Positions 18,760 to 54,882 of a stretch of DNA of 64,000 nt are shown here, one piece after another. A model generated the notes under the pieces. It was given only the letters and a program-made list of their open reading frames with translations. It made no database searches and had not been told where the DNA came from. The stretch is from Sulfurimonas sp. HSL-1656 (GTDB lineage Bacteria; Campylobacterota; Campylobacteria; Campylobacterales; Sulfurimonadaceae). A program made the position numbers and the translations under genes. Position 1 is the first letter of the stretch; each line of letters starts with the position of its first letter. The stretch lies in contig NZ_CP147915.1 of assembly GCF_039645585.1 (NCBI RefSeq), forward strand, positions 434,001 through 498,000, in the 5' to 3' direction.

Positions 18760-18942
18760 GTTCCCCTTCTTTTTCGCTTATCCAAAAAAGAAGCCGAACC
18801 GGGAAGAAAAAAGGATAAAAGGCTGCGCCCTGGAAGAAATACTCTCGGAGTGCGCTTTCGGGACATACCATGCCCCGGTGATCCTGCTGACACGCTAATA
18901 ATCGTTTTGGACTTGACAGATGAAGCGGATTGTCATACGTTT
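18760..18942 (+). repeat. Dispersed repeat, copy A
   Basis: First of four copies of an element beginning GTTCCCCTTCTTTTT. The core (to 18826) contains a pyrimidine arm, a six-base loop, the matching purine arm, and a downstream GGATAA that can pair with the loop. Copy A has one mismatch in the arm (CTTCTTTTTCG). Beyond the core it shares the flank from about 18852 with copy C, but carries about 25 extra bases just after the core that copy C lacks. It lies between the convergent accA and exonuclease genes. Reading frames crossing it are not credible genes. Confidence 0.75.
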
Positions 18943-19009
18943 CACTTAGCACTTAGCACTTAGCACTTAGCACTTAGCACTTAGCACTTAGCACTTAGCA
19001 CTTAGCACT
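18943..19009 (+). repeat. Heptamer tandem array, CACTTAG x 9
   Basis: Nine exact head-to-tail copies of CACTTAG plus four bases of a tenth follow copy A of the dispersed repeat without a gap and end five bases before the exonuclease stop. Because the unit is seven bases and contains TAG, every plus-strand frame is closed. The array at 48009 has the same unit but 14 copies. Confidence 0.97.
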
Positions 19010-31336: not shown

Positions 31337-32266
31337 ATGTTCAACAAAAAAGCATTATTTCGCTTTTTAGGTGCGGCGACACTGCTCTCGACACTGCTGC
31401 ATGCGGACGGCCAGACACCGCTGAAAGTCGAAGAACTTCTTTCCAAGAAAAATGCGTTCAACGTCGATGTCTCCGTCGCGTATTCCAACATCGACCAAAA
31501 AACCGCGATGAGTACGGTGGTCCCGGTATCGACGCTGCTTTCGTTCATCTACATCCCGGCGTATGCGGGGGAGCAGGTGCTTGACCAGGATGTGGTCGTA
31601 GCCTCGCTGAACCTCAAATACGGTCTGACCGATTGGCTCGAACTGGTCATGTATGCCAACGGGCACAACACCTCCAGCCGCGTGCAGCTCGGCGACGCGA
31701 TCGCGAACCAGGCAGATACGGATTTCGACCATGCGGGTATCGGTGCGACGTTCCGCGTCAAGGACGAGGGGGTCTACCCCTCGCTGCTGGTGGGGGTCTC
31801 GACCAACGTGATCGGCCGGCTGACTTTTGCCGACCGTGACGTCGACGGCAACGTTATCGGGACGACGAAACAGGACAAGACGTTTGAATCGTTCAACTTC
31901 TACGCGCTCTCCTATTACACGGTGGACCCGGTTGTCTTCGTCTTCAAAGCGCAGTACCAGTGGAGTGTGGAAGAGGATTACAAAGGGGATACAAGTGACC
32001 GCCCGGACATCCTGGCGATTTCCCCGCAGGTCTATTTTGCGGTCAACCCCTATACCAACCTCAGCTGGGGCGTAACCTACCGCTACCAGACGGAGCAGCG
32101 CTTTAACGGCAAAGTGGAAACGATTGCGGAATCTTCCATCGGCTATAACATCGGGGTAAGCTACGAGGTCTCCCGGGGCAACATCATTTCCCTGGATGCC
32201 AGCAACAACGAAACGGCCACGTACAGCCAGAACACGATCAACCTTATCTACTCAAAGCGGTTCTGA
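31337..32266 (+). CDS. Outer-membrane beta-barrel protein paired with a C39 peptidase
   Basis: The 309-residue product has a signal peptide ending near LHA (23), then many amphipathic strands (SVAYSNI, VVASLNLKYGL, AGIGATFRV, FVFKAQYQW, LSWGVTYRYQ) and a terminal phenylalanine after NLIYSKRF, as in outer-membrane barrels of about 12 strands. It resembles phenol-pathway MetA-type or FapF-like transporters in general plan only. Its stop overlaps the start of the C39 peptidase (TGATG), so barrel and peptidase are made together. It is the obvious outer-membrane exit for the two small peptides upstream. Confidence 0.7.
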   Translation: MFNKKALFRFLGAATLLSTLLHADGQTPLKVEELLSKKNAFNVDVSVAYSNIDQKTAMSTVVPVSTLLSFIYIPAYAGEQVLDQDVVVASLNLKYGLTDWLELVMYANGHNTSSRVQLGDAIANQADTDFDHAGIGATFRVKDEGVYPSLLVGVSTNVIGRLTFADRDVDGNVIGTTKQDKTFESFNFYALSYYTVDPVVFVFKAQYQWSVEEDYKGDTSDRPDILAISPQVYFAVNPYTNLSWGVTYRYQTEQRFNGKVETIAESSIGYNIGVSYEVSRGNIISLDASNNETATYSQNTINLIYSKRF

Positions 32267-32982
32267 TGAAACGGGCATTGCAGGCACTCTTCCCGGCACT
32301 CTGGCTGCTTGCGGCGGCTGATGTGTATGCCGGACAGGCGGAGGGCGAAGTGAAAACCGCCATGCCGATCATCGAGCAGGAGTACACCGTCAGGGTCCCG
32401 GTGAAAAGCTGGAGTGAGCTCAAAGAGCAGGATGTCGTACGCCAGCGCTACGATTTCTCGTGCGGTGCGGCGTCGATGGCGACGATCATGAACCATTTTT
32501 ACGAGCAGAACGTGACCGAGAACGGCATCGTTCAGACGGTCCTGAAAATGAAAGGTGTCGGCAGCGACGCGCATAAACTGGAGAAGAGCGACTTCGCCCT
32601 TTCGTTCGCGGACCTCGCCGACTTCGGGCAGACCATCGGGTTCAGGGGCGTGGGTGTCGCGATGGATATCGATGCCCTGCGCAAGCTGCGGATCCCGGTC
32701 ATCCTCTATGTCAAGATCCGCCGCTTCGAACACTTTACCGTTTTCAAGGGGATCCGCGGCGACTTCGTCTACCTGGCCGACCCCTCATTCGGCAATATGA
32801 AAGTGAAGATGGCAAAGTTCCTGGAGATGTTCTACCAGCGTGATGACCTCAAACACCCCGGGCGGGTGCTCGCGTTTATCCCGGTGGACAAAGAGGCCGT
32901 CCAGCCGGACAAAACGTTTATGACCGTCCCCGACTCCACCGACTACCTCTACCAGTACATCGAAAACAGGATCGACCACTAG
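32266..32982 (+). CDS. Periplasmic C39 family cysteine peptidase
   Basis: The 238-residue protein begins with a signal peptide ending near VYA (22). It then has the papain-like C39 core: oxyanion Q60 and catalytic C66 in QRYDFSCGAAS, catalytic H156 in FEHFTVFKG, and D172 in YLADPS. C39 domains usually form the cytosolic N-terminus of bacteriocin exporters and cut after double-glycine leaders; here the peptidase is free-standing and exported, like FapD of the Fap amyloid system. Translationally coupled to the barrel gene. Probable role: cleavage of the leader-like motif in the two small secreted proteins, or of the barrel's N-terminus. Confidence 0.82.
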   Translation: MKRALQALFPALWLLAAADVYAGQAEGEVKTAMPIIEQEYTVRVPVKSWSELKEQDVVRQRYDFSCGAASMATIMNHFYEQNVTENGIVQTVLKMKGVGSDAHKLEKSDFALSFADLADFGQTIGFRGVGVAMDIDALRKLRIPVILYVKIRRFEHFTVFKGIRGDFVYLADPSFGNMKVKMAKFLEMFYQRDDLKHPGRVLAFIPVDKEAVQPDKTFMTVPDSTDYLYQYIENRIDH

Positions 32983-32993
32983 CTCCCTGGTCC

Positions 32994-33014
32994 GCACGCA
33001 CCCGCGTGCTTTTT
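32994..33014 (+). terminator. Terminator after the C39 peptidase gene
   Basis: GCACGC / GCGTGC with loop ACCC is followed by five Ts. It lies between two convergent genes, so it ends the plus-strand operon. Confidence 0.75.
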
Positions 33015-33015
33015 G

Positions 33016-33612
33016 TTAAAAGAGGAAGTTGATCCCGCCGTAGTAGCGTACGGAGTTGTCATCCGTCGAGAGCTTGGTGTAGCTCGGCGTGTAATACGTG
33101 ATGTCCTGCCATGTGCGCCACTGGAAATCGACGCCGCCCATCAGCTCCAGCTGCGGCGCGATGCGGAAGATAAGCCCTGCCCCGACCTTGAGACTGACTT
33201 CATTGATGCGGTCGTCATCAGGGTAATAGTAGTTGTCAAGCCGCATCGAACCGCTGCCGATTCCCGCCTGGATAAATGGCATCAAGGCCGAGTACGTTTC
33301 GAAGGTTTTCATAACATCCAGCCCGAGCTCGTACAGTTCGTCATTACTGTAGTCAAAGAGGGGCTCGTCGAAGAGTTCACCGAGCAGATAGCCCTGCAGG
33401 CGCCACCCGTCGTAGAGGACGGCCCCGAATTTAAGGGCGAAACCTTTGCTCCCGATCGATGGTCTTTCATGATAGCCGTTGGCTTCAAAATCGAATTTGT
33501 TTTCGCTGCCGAAAAGGTTCAGACCGAAATAGAGATCCGCCCGCTGCGCCCAGGCATTTGCCGAGAGCGCGCCCAAAAGCAGCGGGGTCAACAGGAGGGA
33601 TTTTCGCATCAT
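33016..33612 (-). CDS. Outer-membrane beta-barrel protein, hypothetical
   Basis: The 198-residue product has a signal peptide ending near NAWA (22) and a mature part of alternating strands with many Tyr/Trp/Phe and Gly, ending in a C-terminal phenylalanine (YYGGINFLF). This fits a small outer-membrane barrel. AAGGAA precedes the tandem ATGs at 33612/33609. It converges on the C39 locus and is probably a separate unit. No finer family call is possible. Confidence 0.65.
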   Translation of the reverse strand: MMRKSLLLTPLLLGALSANAWAQRADLYFGLNLFGSENKFDFEANGYHERPSIGSKGFALKFGAVLYDGWRLQGYLLGELFDEPLFDYSNDELYELGLDVMKTFETYSALMPFIQAGIGSGSMRLDNYYYPDDDRINEVSLKVGAGLIFRIAPQLELMGGVDFQWRTWQDITYYTPSYTKLSTDDNSVRYYGGINFLF

Positions 33613-33753
33613 AGTTCCTTCTTGAATGGTATTTCATAGCTATTATTATTCATAGTTTACAGTAAACAGCCACGGAAGGACATGAAATAAGGGCGGCGGC
33701 GCTACGGTTTTGCTACGTTTTGCCGTTACAATCCACTTTAAAAAGGAGAAGCA

Positions 33754-34143
33754 ATGCAGGCAATCAAATTCCCTTTTCTCGAACACACCGGCGCGACACT
33801 GAAGCGCGCGGAGCAGGGCGAAGCGGAGGTAGAGCTGCACGTTCAGCCGTACCATCTGCAGCACCTGGGCTTTGTGCACGGCGGGGTTATCTCGACGCTG
33901 ATGGACAATACCGGCTGGTACGCCGCCGTCTCCAACCTGGACGAGGGCTACACGGCCGTGACAATGGAGATCAAGATCAACTATCTCAAGCCCGCCTCGG
34001 GCAAGCACCTGCTGGCCTCGGCCGCCGTGAAAAGACAGGGGCGAAAGACGGCCTTCGTCACGATCGAGCTGCACGATGAAGGCAAGCTCGTCGCCTTTGC
34101 CACGGGCACCTACGCCATCATGGAAGACCCGCAGCACTCCTGA
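33754..34143 (+). CDS. PaaI family hotdog-fold thioesterase
   Basis: The 129-residue protein shows the hotdog thioesterase pattern: HLGFVHGGVISTLMDNTGWYAA, where HGG and the later D form the active site, then YLKPASGKHLLASAAVKRQGR and a final strand. Members hydrolyse acyl- or aryl-CoA thioesters. AAAGGAG precedes the ATG. The substrate is unknown. Confidence 0.85.
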   Translation: MQAIKFPFLEHTGATLKRAEQGEAEVELHVQPYHLQHLGFVHGGVISTLMDNTGWYAAVSNLDEGYTAVTMEIKINYLKPASGKHLLASAAVKRQGRKTAFVTIELHDEGKLVAFATGTYAIMEDPQHS

Positions 34144-34146
34144 AAA

Positions 34147-34368
34147 TTACATGACGAGGTCCGAGTTGTAGTGGCACATGAAGCATTCGGGGCGCTCGTC
34201 CAATACTTCCGCCAGGATCTCGGCAAAATCGGGGAGCACAATACTTCTAAGCCCCGCTTCCTGGGCTTCCACAATCTTGATCAGCTCTTCGGGCCAGTAG
34301 ACGTAGGTGGTCGTCCGCGCCGTGTTTTTGTAAATATGGATTTTGTCGTCGATGATGTCGTATTCCAT
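34147..34368 (-). CDS. hypothetical protein, 73 aa
   Basis: I do not recognise this family. The small acidic protein contains a CFMCH motif near the C-terminus that could bind a metal. It lies nine bases downstream of the 77-residue gene on the same strand, so the two probably form an operon convergent with the thioesterase gene. No signal peptide or membrane helix. Confidence 0.5.
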   Translation of the reverse strand: MEYDIIDDKIHIYKNTARTTTYVYWPEELIKIVEAQEAGLRSIVLPDFAEILAEVLDERPECFMCHYNSDLVM

Positions 34369-34376
34369 ACGTCGAC

Positions 34377-34610
34377 TCAGTCCGGCGTGTTCTGCATAGC
34401 TTCGATAACGGCGTTTCTGTATGTCTCCGCCTCCGCCATCGTCGTGTAATACCTCGTCCAGACAATTCCCGCGATGATCTTGAAGTAGTAGAGTTTCTCA
34501 TCCATCTTGTTGCTGTTCGCGACGTAGTTCTCGTTTTCATAGATACCGGTGACCCCCGATATGTTCCTGACGGCAATGACGTTGCCGTAGCTGTCCTCAA
34601 GCAGTTGCAT
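34377..34610 (-). CDS. hypothetical protein, 77 aa
   Basis: Unrecognised small soluble protein, first of a two-gene unit with the 73-residue gene. It has a YGNVIAVRNISGVTGI strand-like N-terminus and a helical C-terminus, with no signal peptide. An AGGAG-type site (complement of 34615-34620) precedes the ATG. It marks the left edge of the AT-rich region. Confidence 0.5.
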   Translation of the reverse strand: MQLLEDSYGNVIAVRNISGVTGIYENENYVANSNKMDEKLYYFKIIAGIVWTRYYTTMAEAETYRNAVIEAMQNTPD

Positions 34611-34858
34611 TTTTGCTCCTGTGTGTTGGCATTGACACCATTATATATGCAAGCACCTCTCTTGCGGACGGGAAGGTTGCCTACTCTTTAGCGTTATGTT
34701 GAAAAGACGGAGAACCGTTTTTAGATCAGAAGTTTCTGGGTGTGGAAGATGAAAGAAGGAAGTGTATATTTAGGAGGGTTTCGAGCGGATGGATTTGAAA
34801 AAACAGATCCCCAATGCTGGACACAACTTCTAGGATTGGTCCAACATCGGGGTGGCGG
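34611..34858. other. Non-coding stretch with an imperfect inverted repeat
   Basis: No credible gene. CCCCAATGCTGGAC (34809-34822) and GTCCAACATCGGGG (34839-34852) form a 14-base inverted repeat with two mismatched pairs and a 16-base spacer. This could be a remnant of an insertion-sequence end or an operator. Confidence 0.4.
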
Positions 34859-35059
34859 TTATCTACTGCACATCGGTGAGCAGTAGTCGCATCCATCTAC
34901 GGCCGTGTAGAATACTTTCGCTGCCTCAAGCGCGTTCAGACAGTGTGAAAAGCCTCCAAGGAAAATTCTCTCACTCGGTAACTGTGAGCAACCCTCTTTA
35001 TGAACTGCGTGTTCACCTGCATTCCCTGCTTCTTTGCTTACATAGTATTTAGCTGCCAT
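34859..35059 (-). CDS. Small conserved Cys-containing protein, 66 aa
   Basis: The product starts MAAKYYVSKEAGNAGEHAVHKEGC and ends in GCDYCSPMCSR. A small protein with an N-terminal YYV, then HxxxC and a terminal CxxCxxxC cluster is seen scattered in many bacteria and may bind a metal ion; function unknown. AAGGACACGAT precedes the ATG. It lies at the left of the AT-rich island and may be mobile cargo. Confidence 0.6.
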   Translation of the reverse strand: MAAKYYVSKEAGNAGEHAVHKEGCSQLPSERIFLGGFSHCLNALEAAKVFYTAVDGCDYCSPMCSR

Positions 35060-35115
35060 ATCGTGTCCTTATGCTGTCAGCACAAGTGGAGAGACGTGAC
35101 ATATCAGTCTGTTGA

Positions 35116-35361
35116 TTAGGGTAATCTTGGATTTTCAGTCCTAATTTTAAAGGCACAGACTAAAATATGTTTTGCGTTATAGTCTAAAACCACTTCTACT
35201 GGTTTTGATTCTGACCGGAGTGCCATTCCCAGTGGCACTCTAATCACACCTGCAATGCTACTTTTATCTGAGACGGATTGGTACCGTTCAAAATAATCAC
35301 TCTGGCTTTCAAAATTCAGTGCAATCGTATTTCTACTCGCTATGTCATGAAGTACATCCAC
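35116..35361 (-). CDS. hypothetical protein or gene fragment, 81 aa
   Basis: An unrecognised open frame whose C-terminal two thirds (strand-rich, VIRVPLGMALRSE and VEVVLDYNAKHILVCAFKI) reads like a folded domain rather than a chance frame. No good ribosome site precedes the ATG, and upstream sequence is AT-rich and featureless, so it may be the surviving end of a larger gene. Confidence 0.3.
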   Translation of the reverse strand: MDVLHDIASRNTIALNFESQSDYFERYQSVSDKSSIAGVIRVPLGMALRSESKPVEVVLDYNAKHILVCAFKIRTENPRLP

Positions 35362-35858
35362 ATCAATGACTCAAAATACGGGGTGCATAAATTATTCAAG
35401 AACGTAATATTTCAGGCGCTTTGTTTTCATTTTGTGACATAACTTTTTACACATTTTGAGCAAGCTTTACAGAGCTTTAATAATGGAGAATATTTATTGT
35501 TTGAAAGAGTACGAAATATGCCTGCTTTGGTGCGTTCATATCAAGTATGTTTAGGAAAGCCCGAAATTCAGGCGTTTGAACCAGTGCGTATTATTGAGAA
35601 GATCTGAATAATTTGTTGTTTGTATCCTTGACATTGATGCACTTTAAAGTTAGGAGCCCTCATGGAAATAAACGATAATGATCTGTTTTTCTGAAATCGT
35701 AAATTTTTTGAAAAGTTTCTAGTTTGGAAGTTTTTGCTTGGATGGTGAGACAGGAGTGATTTGAAAAAATACATCGTATTTGAGTACAGAGGGATTCGAA
35801 AAAAAACCACCGCTTTGACATAAAATCGTCTTCATTTTTTACACTGTTCTACCATTAC
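35362..35858. other. AT-rich non-coding stretch
   Basis: About 500 bases with no gene I can support. The one longer minus-strand frame (35568-35810) has Ser/Phe/Asn-rich low-complexity composition and no ribosome site. Probably decayed DNA at the border of the island. Confidence 0.4.
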
Positions 35859-36007
35859 GGTATGCAAACCTTCAAGTCTTTTACCTTGCCGGCTCTTAGC
35901 TTTTATGGGCCGTCAGAACTTTTTACAAATGTTGATCAGCTCTACAGATTTTTGAGCATGCAGAATATTCGTTATTTGAGAGAATATAAGAAGAGTCTAC
36001 CGTGGTA
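35859..36007 (+). repeat. Direct repeat, left copy
   Basis: The 149 bases starting GGTATGCAAACCTTCAAG recur with point changes and one 24-base deletion at 38378-38502, in the same orientation. The extra 24 bases here are bracketed by TTTGAG, which occurs once in the other copy, consistent with deletion by short-repeat slippage. The two copies bracket four AT-rich genes. Confidence 0.8.
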
Positions 36008-36080
36008 TGTAAAGGTATTAAATTGTGGGAGTAAAATAGAGGTAATTGTGTTTGAATGCGAAATTATTTTAGAGCAGTGA
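35862..36080 (+). CDS. hypothetical protein, 72 aa, longer member of a duplicated pair
   Basis: An unrecognised small protein starting MQTFKSFTLPALSFYG. Its first part is repeated by the frame at 38381, which stops early. Changes between the two mostly keep the reading frame, and the deletion is a multiple of three, hinting at past coding selection. No ribosome site of note. Confidence 0.4.
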   Translation: MQTFKSFTLPALSFYGPSELFTNVDQLYRFLSMQNIRYLREYKKSLPWYVKVLNCGSKIEVIVFECEIILEQ

Positions 36081-36168
36081 CAAAGTGATTCATTTTTGCA
36101 TTATTACTAAAAAATTTATTTCAATATTTTTTGATAAACTGTCTTCAAATGTATTTTGAGGTGTTGTC

Positions 36169-36888
36169 ATGGTATTAAGTAGAGTAGTTATCGGTGTAAT
36201 GTTGAACAAAAGACTTTTTCGATTGTCTTCAATAGGTGGACTTGTAATCGATGCTCTATTGGATTTGGAAACTAAGAAAGGACACCCTTTTTTTTCAGAG
36301 ATAGGGTATACAGGTTCCAAGGAAAATGATTACACAATATCTCTTCGTGGACAAGATGGAAGGTATTCCTTAACAATAACTCAAGATCAATTTATATTAA
36401 AGAAGACTTCTCTAGATGAAAACCCTGTAAATATTCCGAATGTAATTAGTGATTTTGATGTTTTTTGGAAGGCTGCTAATAAGATTATTTCATTTCCTTC
36501 AATCAGAAGAATTGGTTTTGTTGGTGAGCACCAGATAGATTTGGATGAGAAAAAAAGAAATGAGATGATGCAAAAGTTTGTTACTTTTTCCGTACCAGAT
36601 TACCTTGGTAAGTTTCAACTGACTTTTGAAAATCGTAGGTTAACTACTAGTGGCGATATCGCGGATAAATTGGTTGATGATTTTTGGAATACGATTTATA
36701 CAATATATCTTAGTGAGCAGGATGAAACACCAACAGAGAATAAACTTAATATCAATATCGACGTACAGCGTTATTACAATCCTGCAAAAACTGATCCTAT
36801 AAAAGAAATTAATAATATAAAAGCTAAATATATTGAAGACAAAGATCAATTTATTGCGAATTTTGATTTGTCAGGTCTCGGAAAATAA
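36169..36888 (+). CDS. hypothetical protein, 239 aa, AT-rich island
   Basis: I cannot name this family with confidence. The soluble mixed alpha/beta protein contains RRIGFVGEHQIDL (about 118-130) and INIDVQRYYNP near the C-terminus, vaguely recalling the sporadic TIGR04255 family; this is weak. Codon use is visibly AT-rich compared with the rest of the window, a sign of transfer. It overlaps the next gene by TAATG, so the pair acts as one unit. GAGGTGTTGTC precedes the ATG. Confidence 0.6.
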   Translation: MVLSRVVIGVMLNKRLFRLSSIGGLVIDALLDLETKKGHPFFSEIGYTGSKENDYTISLRGQDGRYSLTITQDQFILKKTSLDENPVNIPNVISDFDVFWKAANKIISFPSIRRIGFVGEHQIDLDEKKRNEMMQKFVTFSVPDYLGKFQLTFENRRLTTSGDIADKLVDDFWNTIYTIYLSEQDETPTENKLNINIDVQRYYNPAKTDPIKEINNIKAKYIEDKDQFIANFDLSGLGK

Positions 36889-37397
36889 TGGCAAGAAAGA
36901 AACCGAAAACGAGAAATCCTAGGTTTATTCCTAATGATGTTCATTCTGAGCACGTGCGAGATGCTGATGATGTTTTTTCAACTCAGGGTACGAGAAGGGG
37001 AGAAGGTGAAGAGAACTTTACATCTGTACCACGGCCAAGAGTAAAGACTGAGGATAAGAAAAAAAATCTTTATCAATATATATCTAAATACATAAATGAA
37101 ATTGTAACTGTAGCTGCTTTGATCCCTTTACTTTATTTCTTATTTAGTATCTATCGCGATTTAGAAGATGCAAAAACGGATATTGATACTAACAAAAAGG
37201 CAATTAAAACAGATAAGTCTACGATTGTAGAACACGATAGACAAATTGCGTTAATTGAAAGAGATATTATTTATCTTCAGGAAGCGAAAAAACGAATTGA
37301 AGATAAGATATCAACATTAGAACATAGTTTGGTTGATATGCGATTGGAGCAGACTAGGTTTGAGTCGCATGAGAAAAATAAACAAGCAAAAAAGTAA
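36888..37397 (+). CDS. Membrane-anchored coiled-coil protein, 169 aa
   Basis: Unrecognised. The N-terminal 75 residues are basic and hydrophilic, one membrane helix follows (about 75-93, IVTVAALIPLLYFLFSIY), and the rest is a continuous charged coiled coil (about 95-165). Overlap with the preceding gene (TAATG) implies a two-protein system, perhaps a soluble sensor or effector with a membrane partner. AT-rich, like its partner. Lack of a signal peptide puts the N-terminus in the cytosol and the coil probably outside. Confidence 0.6.
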   Translation: MARKKPKTRNPRFIPNDVHSEHVRDADDVFSTQGTRRGEGEENFTSVPRPRVKTEDKKKNLYQYISKYINEIVTVAALIPLLYFLFSIYRDLEDAKTDIDTNKKAIKTDKSTIVEHDRQIALIERDIIYLQEAKKRIEDKISTLEHSLVDMRLEQTRFESHEKNKQAKK

Positions 37398-37400
37398 ATA

Positions 37401-37811
37401 TTATTCTATTTTTTTGTAGATGCTCTTTATCCCAAAAGCTTCGATGAAAATCGTATTCTTGTCAACAACTCTATACACTGCTCCGGTTCCGCTGTCATCA
37501 TGGACGATCACCGTGTTTCCGTCTACGTCATATTTAACTTTCGCGTAGATCCCCATTGTGATCATGCTGTCTTTTCTGAACTCGATTTTTTGACGTCCCA
37601 TGAATGGTAATTTGGTTGCAGATACCCAGGTGCCGATTAGTGGATTTGTTGGTTTGAACGCAACAAAGGCCAAGATCAGTGTCGCAACTACCATTGCACC
37701 TATGACGTAGTAAGCTTTCTTGGTTGTCTTATCGGTTCTGATGTTGCCTGCAGCGCAGTGAGGGCATGTCTTACTAATGTAGAATTCGTTGCAATTTTGG
37801 CAAATAGGCAT
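37401..37811 (-). CDS. Zinc-ribbon membrane protein, 136 aa, hypothetical
   Basis: The product starts with a zinc ribbon (CQNC-x8-CPHC, residues 4-19), has one membrane helix (about 33-52) and a small beta-rich domain (about 57-136, LIGTWVSATKLPF) resembling lipocalin-type or copper-resistance-like modules. Similar ribbon-helix-domain proteins are often phage or island cargo. Convergent with the coiled-coil gene, ending three bases from its stop. Confidence 0.55.
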   Translation of the reverse strand: MPICQNCNEFYISKTCPHCAAGNIRTDKTTKKAYYVIGAMVVATLILAFVAFKPTNPLIGTWVSATKLPFMGRQKIEFRKDSMITMGIYAKVKYDVDGNTVIVHDDSGTGAVYRVVDKNTIFIEAFGIKSIYKKIE

Positions 37812-37879
37812 ATCGTTACTTCCAATAGTATGGGTTTTTGTTTTCAGTGTTGTAATTGAAAATAAACTCGTATAATGGG

Positions 37880-38263
37880 TTAATTTTGACTTCTTTGTAT
37901 GCTGATTCCACCACTGGAATCTTCTGCATCTTCTGTGTCACTGTAATTATTAATTCTTTCTGGCATTAATACATTTAGTATGCAATCACCTCGGTTCGGG
38001 ATTACTTGTATTCTGTATGTTCCAACGGATACTTTGATATTGGCACCCCAAGCAAAGGTATTTGGAATTTTTTTGTTGTGTCTATCGTAGACACTTAACA
38101 TACCGCAGCTGGACGGTGTCAGGCTTACATTCATATAACCTACATTTTTTGCATATACGTTTATGATTTTTTGATTGTCTGACATTTCAATCTTATATGA
38201 ACCAGTACCATCAAGTGCAAGAAGTGATGATGCCGCGATTAGCAGTGAGAGAAATATTTTCAT
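37880..38263 (-). CDS. Secreted/periplasmic hypothetical protein, 127 aa
   Basis: A clear signal peptide (MKIFLSLLIAASSLLALDG) is followed by a small beta-rich domain with two cysteines (SSCGML and GDCILN), which could form a disulfide, and a Ser/Asp-rich tail. AGGAGTTGGACCT-type sequence precedes the ATG. Unrecognised family, AT-rich, inside the direct-repeat-bounded segment. Confidence 0.55.
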   Translation of the reverse strand: MKIFLSLLIAASSLLALDGTGSYKIEMSDNQKIINVYAKNVGYMNVSLTPSSCGMLSVYDRHNKKIPNTFAWGANIKVSVGTYRIQVIPNRGDCILNVLMPERINNYSDTEDAEDSSGGISIQRSQN

Positions 38264-38377
38264 AGGTCCAACTCCTATTTATAGGAGATAAATTTACCTA
38301 ACCCTTCCTTGTTTTTTGATATTTTTAATGGAATTGCCATACATTCAGTTCTAGTTCGTTCATTGATTCGTCATGTT

Positions 38378-38502
38378 GGTATGCAGACCTTCAAGCCTTT
38401 TACCTTGCCAGCTCTTAGCTTTTATGGGTCATCAGAACTCTTTACAAATGCGGATCAGCTCCACATATTTTTGAGAGAATATGAGAAGTATTTCCCTTGG
38501 TA
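38378..38502 (+). repeat. Direct repeat, right copy
   Basis: Same-orientation copy of 35859-36007 with about a dozen point differences and a 24-base in-frame deletion. It marks the right edge of the AT-rich segment, shortly before the GC-rich lipoprotein gene. Confidence 0.8.
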
Positions 38503-38503
38503 A
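38381..38503 (+). pseudogene. Truncated copy of the 72-aa protein gene
   Basis: The frame starts MQTFKPFTLPALSFYG, as the 35862 gene does, but ends after 40 residues at PW, where that gene continues for a further 23 residues. Probably a decayed duplicate. Confidence 0.5.
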
Positions 38504-38513
38504 ATCTATGAAA

Positions 38514-38547
38514 GATTAAAACTCCCGATTCCCGGTAAAGGAATCGG
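38514..38547 (-). terminator. Terminator of the Ca-binding lipoprotein gene
   Basis: On the minus strand CCGATTCC / GGAATCGG (8 bp, seven-base loop) is followed by GAGTTTTAAT, 26 bases after the lipoprotein stop codon. Confidence 0.65.
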
Positions 38548-38572
38548 CAGCCTGCCAAATGCATTCGCGCTA

Positions 38573-40951
38573 CTAAAAAGCAGTACAGGTACCAATGTAT
38601 CCTGGAACGTTACACGCCTCGGTTAGACCAGTGCACGCAGTGTCACAACAATAAGCGTCCACACAGTTACCAGAAGTACAGTCACTGGTTGAAGTACACA
38701 GAGACCCATTGGGAAGTTTAGGAACGTCATCTGCGTTACCGTTACAGTTTTCATCAATTCCATTGCTTAGGATTTCAGTTGCACCGGGGTTGATGGACGG
38801 ATCCGTGTCATCGCAGTCGTTCAGGATCGCGCAGTAACCGTCCATGTCGGCGTCCGTACAGCTTGTACCGCTGTAGTCGATATTTCCATCTGGGTCGGCA
38901 CCGTCACTGGTGCCGCCGGGAACGAGCGGTGACGTGGAACTGTCGGGTGCCAGCGGATGCGGGTCGCTGCCGTCTTTGAGGGCATCGTCGTCCGTGTCGG
39001 CATCGGCGGGGTCCGTCTCGGAGGCGCCTACGGCACCGTTTGCATCAAGATCTTCGCCGCTGACGCATTCGGAGGCAACCGCGGCAGGGCCGTCGCAAAG
39101 GCCGTCGTTGTCGCTGTCGGCGTCGAGGGGGTCGGTGTGTGTGCCGGGATCATTGTCCGGCTGCCAGAGACCGAGGTTCGTACCGCTGTAGGCGATGGCG
39201 GCCGCACCGTCGCTGGTGCCGCCCGAGACGGCAGAAGTTGTTCCTATCTCGAGGCCGTCGATCAGGCCGTCATTGTCGCTGTCATTGTCAAGCGGATTGA
39301 GTGAATAGGTGACTTCAAGGCCATCCGGGATGCCGTCATCATCGGTGTCGGCGTCGAGCGCGTCAGTATTGGCGCTGAGCTCCTGGCCGTCGTTGAGGCC
39401 GTCGTTGTCCGTATCGGGGTCATTCGGGTCAGTGCCGTTTGTGATTTCCGCGGCGTCGGAGACCCCGTCGCTGTCCGCATCGGTAGAAAGCGTACCGCTG
39501 CAGACCCCCGTGACTTGGCAGATATCGTCGACGGTCAGAGGGTTTCCGTCGTTACAGGTTGTCCCTGCAGGAAGCGACTGGATGCTGCAGCCTGTGACCG
39601 GATCAGCGCTGAGCGCTTCGGGGCTGCAGGATGCAGTAGTGCAGGGGTTGCTGTCATCGCAGAACGTATCATTGGGTGTATTGCTGCATGCCCCGGCGGT
39701 ACAGACATCCATCGTACAGGCAAAGTTGTCGTCACAGACAGTCGCCCCATCTTCGTCTGTCGCACCGTCGCAGTCGTTGTCCAGGCTGTCGCATCCGTCC
39801 AGGACGCTGTTATAGGAGGCATCGTGGGCCAGGTAGACGGCGTCGTTGCAGGGGAGCCATCCGGCAGCGCCGCCGCAGGTTTTCTTCGCACCGCTGCAGA
39901 CGCCGTCCTGCATTTCACAAAGCTGCGCGATGAGGTCCGGATCGGCACTGTCAATCAGGCCGTCGCCGTCGTTGTCGACGCCGTCACAGACCTCGACTTC
40001 GTCGATCATACCGTTACAGTTGTCGTCGATACTGTTCCCAATGATTTCGGTTGCGCCCGGATAGACGTTGGGGTTGGTATCGTTGCAGTCGGTGGTAAAG
40101 GGGTACCCGTCCGCATCGGCATCGGCGGGAGCCGCCACGGTGTAGGAGAGTGAGAGTTGACCCAGCGCATTGGCGCCGGTGTCGTTCACATCGATGACGA
40201 GGGTTTGGGCGCCTTCCGACCAGAAGGTTTTAGCCGAAAAGGTCAGGCGGTCATTGGCATGGACGTCCGTGCTCCAGGCCCCGCCGTTGCTCTGGGGCGC
40301 CATCGTGCCGGAGAGCAGAAGGCTGGTCGTATCCATACTTCGGGTGAAAACGACGGCGACGGTGTCGTTGACCTCGATGTCCGAACTGCTTTCGGGAACG
40401 GCGATTGCTGTGAGCGGGACGGTCATGCCTGCGGCCACCATCCCTTCGCCCAGGGCGTGCATCGCTTCTACTGCCCCGACCAGCGTTATCCCCAGCGCCG
40501 CTTCGACGTCTGCGGCGAAAGTGGGGGAACTGAAATCCGTCCCCGCGGGCAGAGCGGCGATCAAAGTGCTGTTGAGATCGATAAGCCCGTTGTTGGGGTC
40601 GCCGTCCCCGTCAAGCGACTGCAGCAGCCGTGCCAGGTTGACGGCTGCAACGGTATCTGCCGGGAAGAAGCTGTAGGGAACGACCGGGCCGCTTTCAGCC
40701 GTGACGGTTCCGATGGAGACGGCGCCGACCGAGAAGGTGACGGTGTCGCCGTCCGGGCAGGTATACCCGCCGCCGGCATCGGTCGTGCCGGCCGTTCCGG
40801 AAGAACAGGCATAGGAGAGCCCCTGGACGGGGGCGTCAATAAACTGGCCGGTCACCGTCGGGGTGCTGCTGCCCCCGCCGCCACCGCCACACGCAGTCAA
40901 TAAGATCAACGCCGTAAAGGCGGGTAAGAGCATTCCCATCCGGATCATCAT
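38573..40951 (-). CDS. Large lipoprotein with MopE-type and thrombospondin-type-3 Ca-binding repeats
   Basis: The 792-residue protein has a lipobox (LLTAC, Cys21) followed by a Gly run, an N-terminal domain (to about 100), an Ig-like Big_5 region (about 178-275), a MopE-type metal-binding motif (DCNDTNPNVYPGATEI, GNSIDDNCNG), Cys-rich segments, a series of Asp-rich repeats (DTDNDGLNDGQEL, DTDDDGIPDGLEV, DNDSDNDGLIDGLEIG), and a second MopE motif near the C-terminus. Such repeats bind calcium and stiffen surface proteins. Probably an extracellular lipid-anchored adhesin or matrix protein. AAAGGA precedes two tandem ATGs. Confidence 0.8.
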   Translation of the reverse strand: MMIRMGMLLPAFTALILLTACGGGGGGSSTPTVTGQFIDAPVQGLSYACSSGTAGTTDAGGGYTCPDGDTVTFSVGAVSIGTVTAESGPVVPYSFFPADTVAAVNLARLLQSLDGDGDPNNGLIDLNSTLIAALPAGTDFSSPTFAADVEAALGITLVGAVEAMHALGEGMVAAGMTVPLTAIAVPESSSDIEVNDTVAVVFTRSMDTTSLLLSGTMAPQSNGGAWSTDVHANDRLTFSAKTFWSEGAQTLVIDVNDTGANALGQLSLSYTVAAPADADADGYPFTTDCNDTNPNVYPGATEIIGNSIDDNCNGMIDEVEVCDGVDNDGDGLIDSADPDLIAQLCEMQDGVCSGAKKTCGGAAGWLPCNDAVYLAHDASYNSVLDGCDSLDNDCDGATDEDGATVCDDNFACTMDVCTAGACSNTPNDTFCDDSNPCTTASCSPEALSADPVTGCSIQSLPAGTTCNDGNPLTVDDICQVTGVCSGTLSTDADSDGVSDAAEITNGTDPNDPDTDNDGLNDGQELSANTDALDADTDDDGIPDGLEVTYSLNPLDNDSDNDGLIDGLEIGTTSAVSGGTSDGAAAIAYSGTNLGLWQPDNDPGTHTDPLDADSDNDGLCDGPAAVASECVSGEDLDANGAVGASETDPADADTDDDALKDGSDPHPLAPDSSTSPLVPGGTSDGADPDGNIDYSGTSCTDADMDGYCAILNDCDDTDPSINPGATEILSNGIDENCNGNADDVPKLPNGSLCTSTSDCTSGNCVDAYCCDTACTGLTEACNVPGYIGTCTAF

Positions 40952-42960: not shown

Positions 42961-43028
42961 GTTCCCCTTCTTCTTTGTTTGCCCAAAGAAGAAGCCGAAC
43001 CGGGAAGAAGAAAGGGCAAATCGGCTGC
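42961..43028 (+). repeat. Dispersed repeat, copy B (diverged)
   Basis: A core-only copy. Relative to the others, the hairpin arms read CTTCTTCTTTG (42967-42977) and CAAAGAAGAAG (42984-42994), still perfectly complementary, and the second helix reads TTGCCC with GGGCAA (43014-43019) instead of TTATCC with GGATAA. Changes occur on both sides of each helix. It lies between moxR and the VWA gene, inside one probable operon. Confidence 0.75.
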
Positions 43029-43096
43029 CGCGCATGAATGGTGTTGATCGGTTGTCAACCTTTTTCTATTACATGCGCGCGCCATGCCATACCTTT

Positions 43097-47851: not shown

Positions 47852-48008
47852 GTTCCCCTTCTTTTTTGCTTATCCAAAAAAGAAGCCGAACCGGGAAGAA
47901 AAAAGGATAAAAGGCTGCCGCTTTCGGGACATACCATGCCCCGGTGATCCTGCTGACACGCTAATAATCGTTTCGGACTTGACAGATGAAGCGGATTGTC
48001 ATACGTTT
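47852..48008 (+). repeat. Dispersed repeat, copy C
   Basis: The most complete copy. Perfect 11-bp hairpin arms CTTCTTTTTTG (47858-47868) and CAAAAAAGAAG (47875-47885) flank loop CTTATC; GGATAA (47905-47910) can pair with the loop region. The flank to 48008, ending in GTCATACGTTT, is nearly identical to copy A. It lies between convergent genes. Confidence 0.85.
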
Positions 48009-48109
48009 CACTTAGCACTTAGCACTTAGCACTTAGCACTTAGCACTTAGCACTTAGCACTTAGCACTTAGCACTTAGCACTTAGCACTTAGCACTTAGC
48101 ACTTAGCAC
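48009..48109 (+). repeat. Heptamer tandem array, CACTTAG x 14
   Basis: Fourteen exact head-to-tail units (48009-48106) plus CAC directly follow copy C, as at 18943 after copy A. The exactness of all units implies recent expansion or ongoing slippage. Confidence 0.97.
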
Positions 48110-54761: not shown

Positions 54762-54882
54762 GTTCCCCTTCTTTTTTGCTTATCCAAAAAAGAAGCCGAA
54801 CCGGGAAGAAAAAAGGATAAAAGGCTGCCGCTTTCGGGGTATTCCATTCCCTGGCGATCCGTTCGACACGCTAACTATCGTT
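54762..54882 (+). repeat. Dispersed repeat, copy D
   Basis: The core (to 54828) is identical to copy C, including the perfect hairpin arms and GGATAA. The right flank keeps only partial similarity (CGACACGCTAACTATCGTTT against GACACGCTAATAATCGTTT) and has no heptamer array. It lies between the smpB duplication and a convergent gene. Confidence 0.8.

Follow-up and report, generated by a model that had tools for sequence, protein, structure and literature searches.

The closest described elements are the PIT/BoxC intrastrand triplex motifs of E. coli and other bacteria (Holder et al. 2015, PMC4666352). In vivo footprints suggest that triplex formation by the E. coli motif is at most minor or transient, and earlier work summarised in the same paper saw no influence of the motif on replication, transcription, or conjugation in living cells (PMC4666352). 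Moreover, this motif reads nearly the same as its mirror image, and a triplex constraint therefore cannot be proven from its sequence alone. The homopurine-homopyrimidine mirror repeats of H-DNA also combine mirror symmetry with a third strand in the major groove, and they need the duplex to be unwound. Among eukaryotic or viral RNAs, MALAT1/PAN triple helices and telomerase-type pseudoknots join major-groove triples to a pseudoknotted tail; MALAT1/PAN elements consist of a U-rich strand, a small stem-loop, a second U-rich strand, and an A-rich strand. Lastly, REP/BIME and CGTC-tagged repeats (PMC3733652) are intergenic and lie at gene 3' ends; REPs are palindromes of 20-40 bp with small loops and have neither a third strand nor a loop-tail helix.

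A structural search of the window, the whole 64,000-nucleotide stretch that was analysed (positions 434001 to 498000 of a 2,556,179-base chromosome), identified exactly four copies of a structured repeat, compared with none in 20 Markov shuffles. These copies, A to D, begin at 18760, 42961, 47852, and 54762 on the plus strand, exactly where the sequence-only reading had placed them. On the element strand, the blocks run 5' to 3' as GTTC, a pyrimidine arm (Y), an 8-base loop, a purine arm (R), a linker with GAAC, a third strand (T), a tail (S2b), and a CTGNCGY motif. In copy B, whose core (GTTCCC to CTGCCGC, 42961 to 43031) matches across 16 aligned copies, the outer stem pairs GTTC (42961 to 42964) with GAAC (42997 to 43000). 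Helix 1 joins Y (CTTCTTCTTT, 42967 to 42976) to R (AAAGAAGAAG, 42985 to 42994), while the final six bases of the loop, segment S2a (TTGCCC, 42979 to 42984), pair with their complement S2b (GGGCAA, 43014 to 43019) to form helix 2. Between R and the tail lie the linker that holds the outer-stem GAAC (CCGAACCGG, 42995 to 43003) and T (GAAGAAGAAA, 43004 to 43013), an exact mirror of R. The conserved CTGNCGY motif, here CTGCCGC, follows 3' of the tail at 43025 to 43031 and has ACTGNCGTC as its counterpart in another family, f6. The core of copy A spans 18760 to 18826 (Y, 18766 to 18775; R, 18784 to 18793; T, 18803 to 18812; S2b, 18813 to 18818), that of copy C 47852 to 47922 (Y, 47858 to 47867; R, 47876 to 47885; T, 47895 to 47904; S2b, 47905 to 47910), and that of copy D 54762 to 54832 (Y, 54768 to 54777; R, 54786 to 54795; T, 54805 to 54814; S2b, 54815 to 54820). 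Copy C continues on the plus strand into a 3' extension (TTTCGGGACAT..CGCTAAT..CGTTTCGGACTTGAC; 47923 to 47995, boundaries approximate), which is kept at orthologous sites and missing in copy B.

In its layout, the repeat resembles PIT/BoxC: both are short, lie dispersed between genes, and line up a pyrimidine block, a purine block, and a mirrored third-strand block in one order on a single strand, which makes both of them class II on that strand and hence class IV on the other. The element shows the defining Y-R-third strand succession with allowed triplets, but its A/T-rich blocks have a different sequence, and the BoxC consensus, CCCTCNCCC N3-6 GGGNGAGGG N3 GGGNGAGGG, found no match in it. 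BoxC is G/C-rich, and its purine block is nearly its own mirror, which makes mirror and direct repeats indistinguishable there, whereas the two can be told apart in the element. A loop-tail helix is present in the element, and none is reported for BoxC. Furthermore, the BoxC copies of MG1655 show no replication bias (13 of 23 oriented with replication, counted from Table 1 of PMC4666352 against the origin and terminus of the chromosome), and BoxC loci are reported to be rearranged between strains, while element sites are kept in up to six species, a comparison at the species level. Given the same block order but a different composition, symmetry, loop-tail pairing, orientation, and site stability, we regard the element as a variant of the PIT/BoxC kind. 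As for H-DNA, the purine mirror of the element is preceded by a pyrimidine arm, so that one strand alone can make the triplex.

The helices seen earlier were recovered as described: in copies C and D the arms CTTCTTTTTTG and CAAAAAAGAAG pair around CTTATC, in copy B the arms read CTTCTTCTTTG and CAAAGAAGAAG, and the second helix joins TTATCC to GGATAA (copies C and D) or TTGCCC to GGGCAA (copy B). The accompanying claim that both helices are kept by compensation held in 43 sequences from two genera. In this set, helix 1 was 98.3% paired and had changed on both sides at 8 of its 10 pairs; for helix 2, pairing stood at 91.9%, and 4 of the 6 pairs had changed on both sides. The whole structure reached 95.9% pairing, against 52-60% in slid controls, and a covariation score of 0.551, against 0.12-0.19. 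Copy A has an uncompensated change in helix 1, a C.A mismatch (CTTCTTTTTCG vs CAAAAAAGAAG), which the sequence-only reading had not mentioned. Folding energy alone was unremarkable (z of -0.6 to -1.9), and G-U type pairs were rare, at about 10 U-G cells in 656. Covariation supports the earlier suggestion that the element acts through structure.

The outer stem, GTTC/GAAC, is constant among home-genus copies, whereas genus g8, from the same family, has other sequences on its 5' side, each varying together with its partner (GTTA/TAAC, GCTA/TAGC, and TCAA/TTGA). The mismatch that usually separates outer stem and helix 1, CC/CC, is replaced by CC/GG in a few copies (L142, L146, L160, and L171), giving a single long perfect hairpin. 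In L017, L114, L118, L126, L129, L132, L145, L152, and L168, the hairpin loop contains a recurrent insert of about 46 bases, which has two small hairpins of its own (GGCATTTAGTGCC and GCGCTTTAGCGC). This insert is always placed after Y and before S2a, which leaves S2a next to R.

With two helices that share loop bases and undergo compensatory changes, the element has what characterises an H-type pseudoknot, as proposed from the window alone. The pseudoknot topology of the loop-tail pairing stood, but the purine tract of the linker was recognised as a third strand, covarying with helix 1, which points to a triplex and not to a plain H-type pseudoknot. T mirrors R and changes jointly with both arms. 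Of 79 home-genus copies, 69 have a T that mirrors R at all 10 positions, and positions 1, 4, 7, and 10 swap as whole triples, (C,G,G) <-> (T,A,A). Across 15 distinct combinations, the observed score was reached by 1 of 20000 permutations, although within-genus counts of this sort are not independent, since whole sequence types have been copied between sites. Genus g8 has differing sequences (e.g., TTTCTTTCTT / AAGAAAGAAA / AAAGAAAGAA) that obey the same mirror rule, with 114 of 120 matches to the triple rule (permutation mean 87, maximum 108 in 20000). In family f6, the block has at least 12 bases and T is the parallel complement of Y, and matches came to 416 of 468, against a permutation mean of 309 and a maximum of 338; there were 95 hits in the f6 loci and none in a shuffle of them. 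The purine arm of f6 has a one-base bulge, which we counted against the triplex reading.

Judged from these alignments, the stronger argument is the agreement of three lineages of Campylobacterales despite unrelated block sequences. A mirror repeat does not arise by duplication; it is the symmetry needed for a third strand to lie in the major groove. The comparison gives good support to an intrastrand triple helix, predicted from its triples, as the unit that is conserved, with its tail paired to the loop of the hairpin, and the covariation shows selection acting on this predicted three-strand arrangement together with the loop-tail lock. Non-symmetric third strands that covary with both arms in three lineages constitute direct evolutionary evidence for a triplex constraint.

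The same covariation of both helices would be expected of an H-type pseudoknot formed by plus-strand RNA, and a connection of 1-2 nt over 5-6 bp suits the deep groove of A-form RNA, where the bridge measures 10-12 A. Such a pseudoknot leaves unexplained why the purine arm is mirrored base by base, and few G-U pairs were found. A purine-motif triplex would account for the mirror, but such triplexes are said not to form in RNA, although pyrimidine-type intrastrand triplexes can (PMC4666352). We consider the plus-strand pseudoknot very unlikely. The pyrimidine motif draws its stability from T.A-T triplets and the purine motif from G.G-C triplets (PMC4666352). The purine blocks of the element are A-rich, and no GG occurs among 24 distinct third strands where about 5 would be expected (p about 0.002; a modest argument). 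On ideal fibre helices, bridging 5-6 bp takes 11.5-12.8 A across the B-DNA minor groove, as needed on the minus strand, which is feasible with 1-2 nt; the B-DNA major groove (25-30 A) and the minor groove of A-form RNA (19-22 A) are too wide for 1-2 nt. A plus-strand purine-motif DNA triplex was rejected on account of the A-rich blocks and the unspannable B-DNA major groove. By this model reasoning, a pyrimidine motif in minus-strand DNA would be the only arrangement compatible with the triple rule and the bridge length alike.

We next consider where the element lies relative to replication. With dnaA at the start of each contig, all 18 sites in the home genome (G000) are co-oriented with replication. 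The sites of G004, G005, and G007, mostly the same sites across these three, are likewise replication-oriented, as are those in complete genomes of family f6, namely G294 (8/8), G481 (1/1), and G445 (5/6), where the single exception lacks a third strand. G675 adds 4 of 4, its dnaA position being unconfirmed. Furthermore, all 31 sites in G000, G294, and G445 lie within 0.37 genome length of the origin (KS p 0.0005). In genus g8, the complete genome G031 has about 20 intact elements in mixed orientation and with no fixed gene arrangement, and it thereby breaks the orientation rule despite intact elements. Orientation could also be a relic of how copies inserted and not a matter of function.

Our preferred reading, to which we give a nearly even chance, is a dispersed, replication-linked family of structured DNA that forms a loop-locked intrastrand triplex, probably of the pyrimidine motif and on the minus strand; both the molecule and the function are what we infer. 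The folded form would be single-stranded DNA, most likely the minus strand with T.A-T and C+.G-C triplets, which may become exposed as a replication fork or RNA polymerase passes. The weakest step is that the structure might serve as a polar mark or barrier where a fork reaches an oncoming transcription unit at its 3' end. That a loop-locked DNA triplex forms in the cell, is polar with respect to forks or oncoming transcription, and is functional and selected near the origin is a more tentative proposal, about which we are doubtful. If true, it would provide a functional, selected bacterial DNA triplex evidenced by triple covariation. Whether the molecule is RNA or single-stranded DNA had been left undecided in the sequence-only reading; orientation, scarce G-U-type pairs, and groove geometry favour DNA, short of proof.

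Gene context bears on an RNA version of the triplex. In the home genome, an oncoming opposite-strand gene lies downstream at 17 of 18 sites (gene call by codon usage), and the remaining site has an oppositely oriented tRNA gene there; in family f6 the arrangement holds at 20 of 24 sites. An element placed just past where a gene on the other strand ends is also what an RNA model would predict, in which a minus-strand transcript of the gene's 3' end folds into a U.A-U / C+.G-C triple helix that protects the mRNA. The minus-strand order would be U-rich, stem-loop, U-rich, and A-rich, as in MALAT1/PAN-type RNAs, and pyrimidine-type triplexes are open to RNA; unlike those RNAs, the element is bacterial, replication-oriented, and known from DNA sequence. 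This model would place the element at head-on genes only, but four G294 sites keep replication orientation without an oncoming downstream gene, and many downstream genes in G031 face the other way. It would also have to span 19-22 A of A-form RNA with 1-2 nt over the 5-6 bp of the loop-tail helix, and U-G pairs are few; we therefore rate it as rather unlikely. The same G294 sites and G031 contradict a 3'-UTR role as the primary rule.

Convergent genes flank 14 of the 18 home sites, and T-rich tracts occur on both sides of the element, as an ordinary bidirectional transcription terminator between such genes would have it. A terminator scan found 3 at copy B, where 1.2 would be expected by chance, and none at copy C, and a terminator explains neither the mirror strand, nor the loop-tail helix, nor the sites between tandem genes; it is an extremely improbable account. 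Within the window, copy A has accA on one side and an exonuclease-domain gene on the other, copy C adjoins a LysR-type regulator gene, and copy D lies between smpB and another gene. Copy B is flanked by two minus-strand genes, for an AAA ATPase and a DUF2201 metallopeptidase/VWA protein. An integron-like array, suggested by the 300-750 bp spacing in G031, was set aside: the intervals are non-coding and hold another repeat, and the spaced copies do not lie between cassettes. This second repeated non-coding unit between triplex elements is seen at L098 (600-880) and L101 (560-870) and terminates in a T-rich hairpin (..TTTTTTTGCGGCGTAAAAAAA..).

The home genome has 18 copies in all, and relatives yielded well over 150 more. 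Covariance models, a check proposed with the original observation, found the element in 17 of 228 home-family genomes, mainly in two genera, and in 60 of 150 genomes of family f6 with up to 23 copies each. Of 397 genomes in a phylum sample, 29 gave hits, some of them weak. Among named records, the home-genus sequence occurs in MAGs that carry the labels Campylobacterales and Sulfuricurvum. An Rfam search returned two tRNAs at the gathering score and chance-level weak matches around the element, and we found no publication on this repeat family in the openly accessible literature searched.

Flank comparison showed home-genus sites to be orthologous in up to six species. Core identity was 87% between orthologues and 83% between paralogues within one genome, compared with flank identities of 82% and 52%, respectively. 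The sequence type at orthologous sites is reshuffled between species, and L008 is a chimera of two element types. This turnover at fixed sites, together with the chimera, points to gene conversion between dispersed copies, with the triplex rule retained. The fixed sites, the orientation with replication, and the exchange of sequence from site to site open the element to concrete experiments.

A multicopy, dispersed, structured, and replication-oriented repeat with short conserved motifs at both ends could also be a non-autonomous mobile element whose folded single strand of DNA enters the lagging-strand template, its structure having been needed for transposition and its orientation and dispersal being relics of insertion. 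Against this stand the orthologous sites, at which no recent movement was seen, and the third strand, which is intact at old sites. Nor was a Y1 transposase domain, as in REP/RAYT (IS200/IS605-type) systems, present in the carrier genomes G000, G005, and G007, for which reason IS200/REP mobilisation was rejected; a plasmid search and two viral-contig pattern scans gave no element hits. We thus regard mobility as quite unlikely. CGTC-tagged repeats are similarly without a transposase (PMC3733652), and like REP/BIME repeats they share the intergenic position at gene 3' ends with the element. The f6 copies have ACTGNCGTC near their 3' side, resembling the CGTC-tagged repeats (PMC3733652). Instead of a 20-40 bp palindrome with a 4-5 bp loop and an unpaired CGTC tag, which the element lacks, it has CTGNCGC (in the home genus), an 8-nt loop, and a third strand.

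Several further repeats accompany the element. Perfect 7-base tandem arrays (CACTTAG) lie 3' of copies A and C, at 18943 to 19009 and 48009 to 48109 of the window. Other copies in the genome have different heptamer arrays (TTAACTC or CGCTTCA) or none. Such arrays are often missing at orthologous sites, and they start a few bases past a promoter-like TTGAC(A)-N17-NANNNT stretch. Small palindrome-like inserts (GCCCTGGAAGAAATACTCTCGGAGT; CGCCCCGGAGGAAGTCCCCTCGGGGGATAG), which resemble a further short repeat family, occur at 18825 to 18853 of the window and within the heptamer arrays of the L002, L003, and L012 orthologues. Finally, positions 32001 to 40000 of the window have a G+C content of 0.47, compared with 0.55-0.60 in the rest of the window, and may represent an acquired region.
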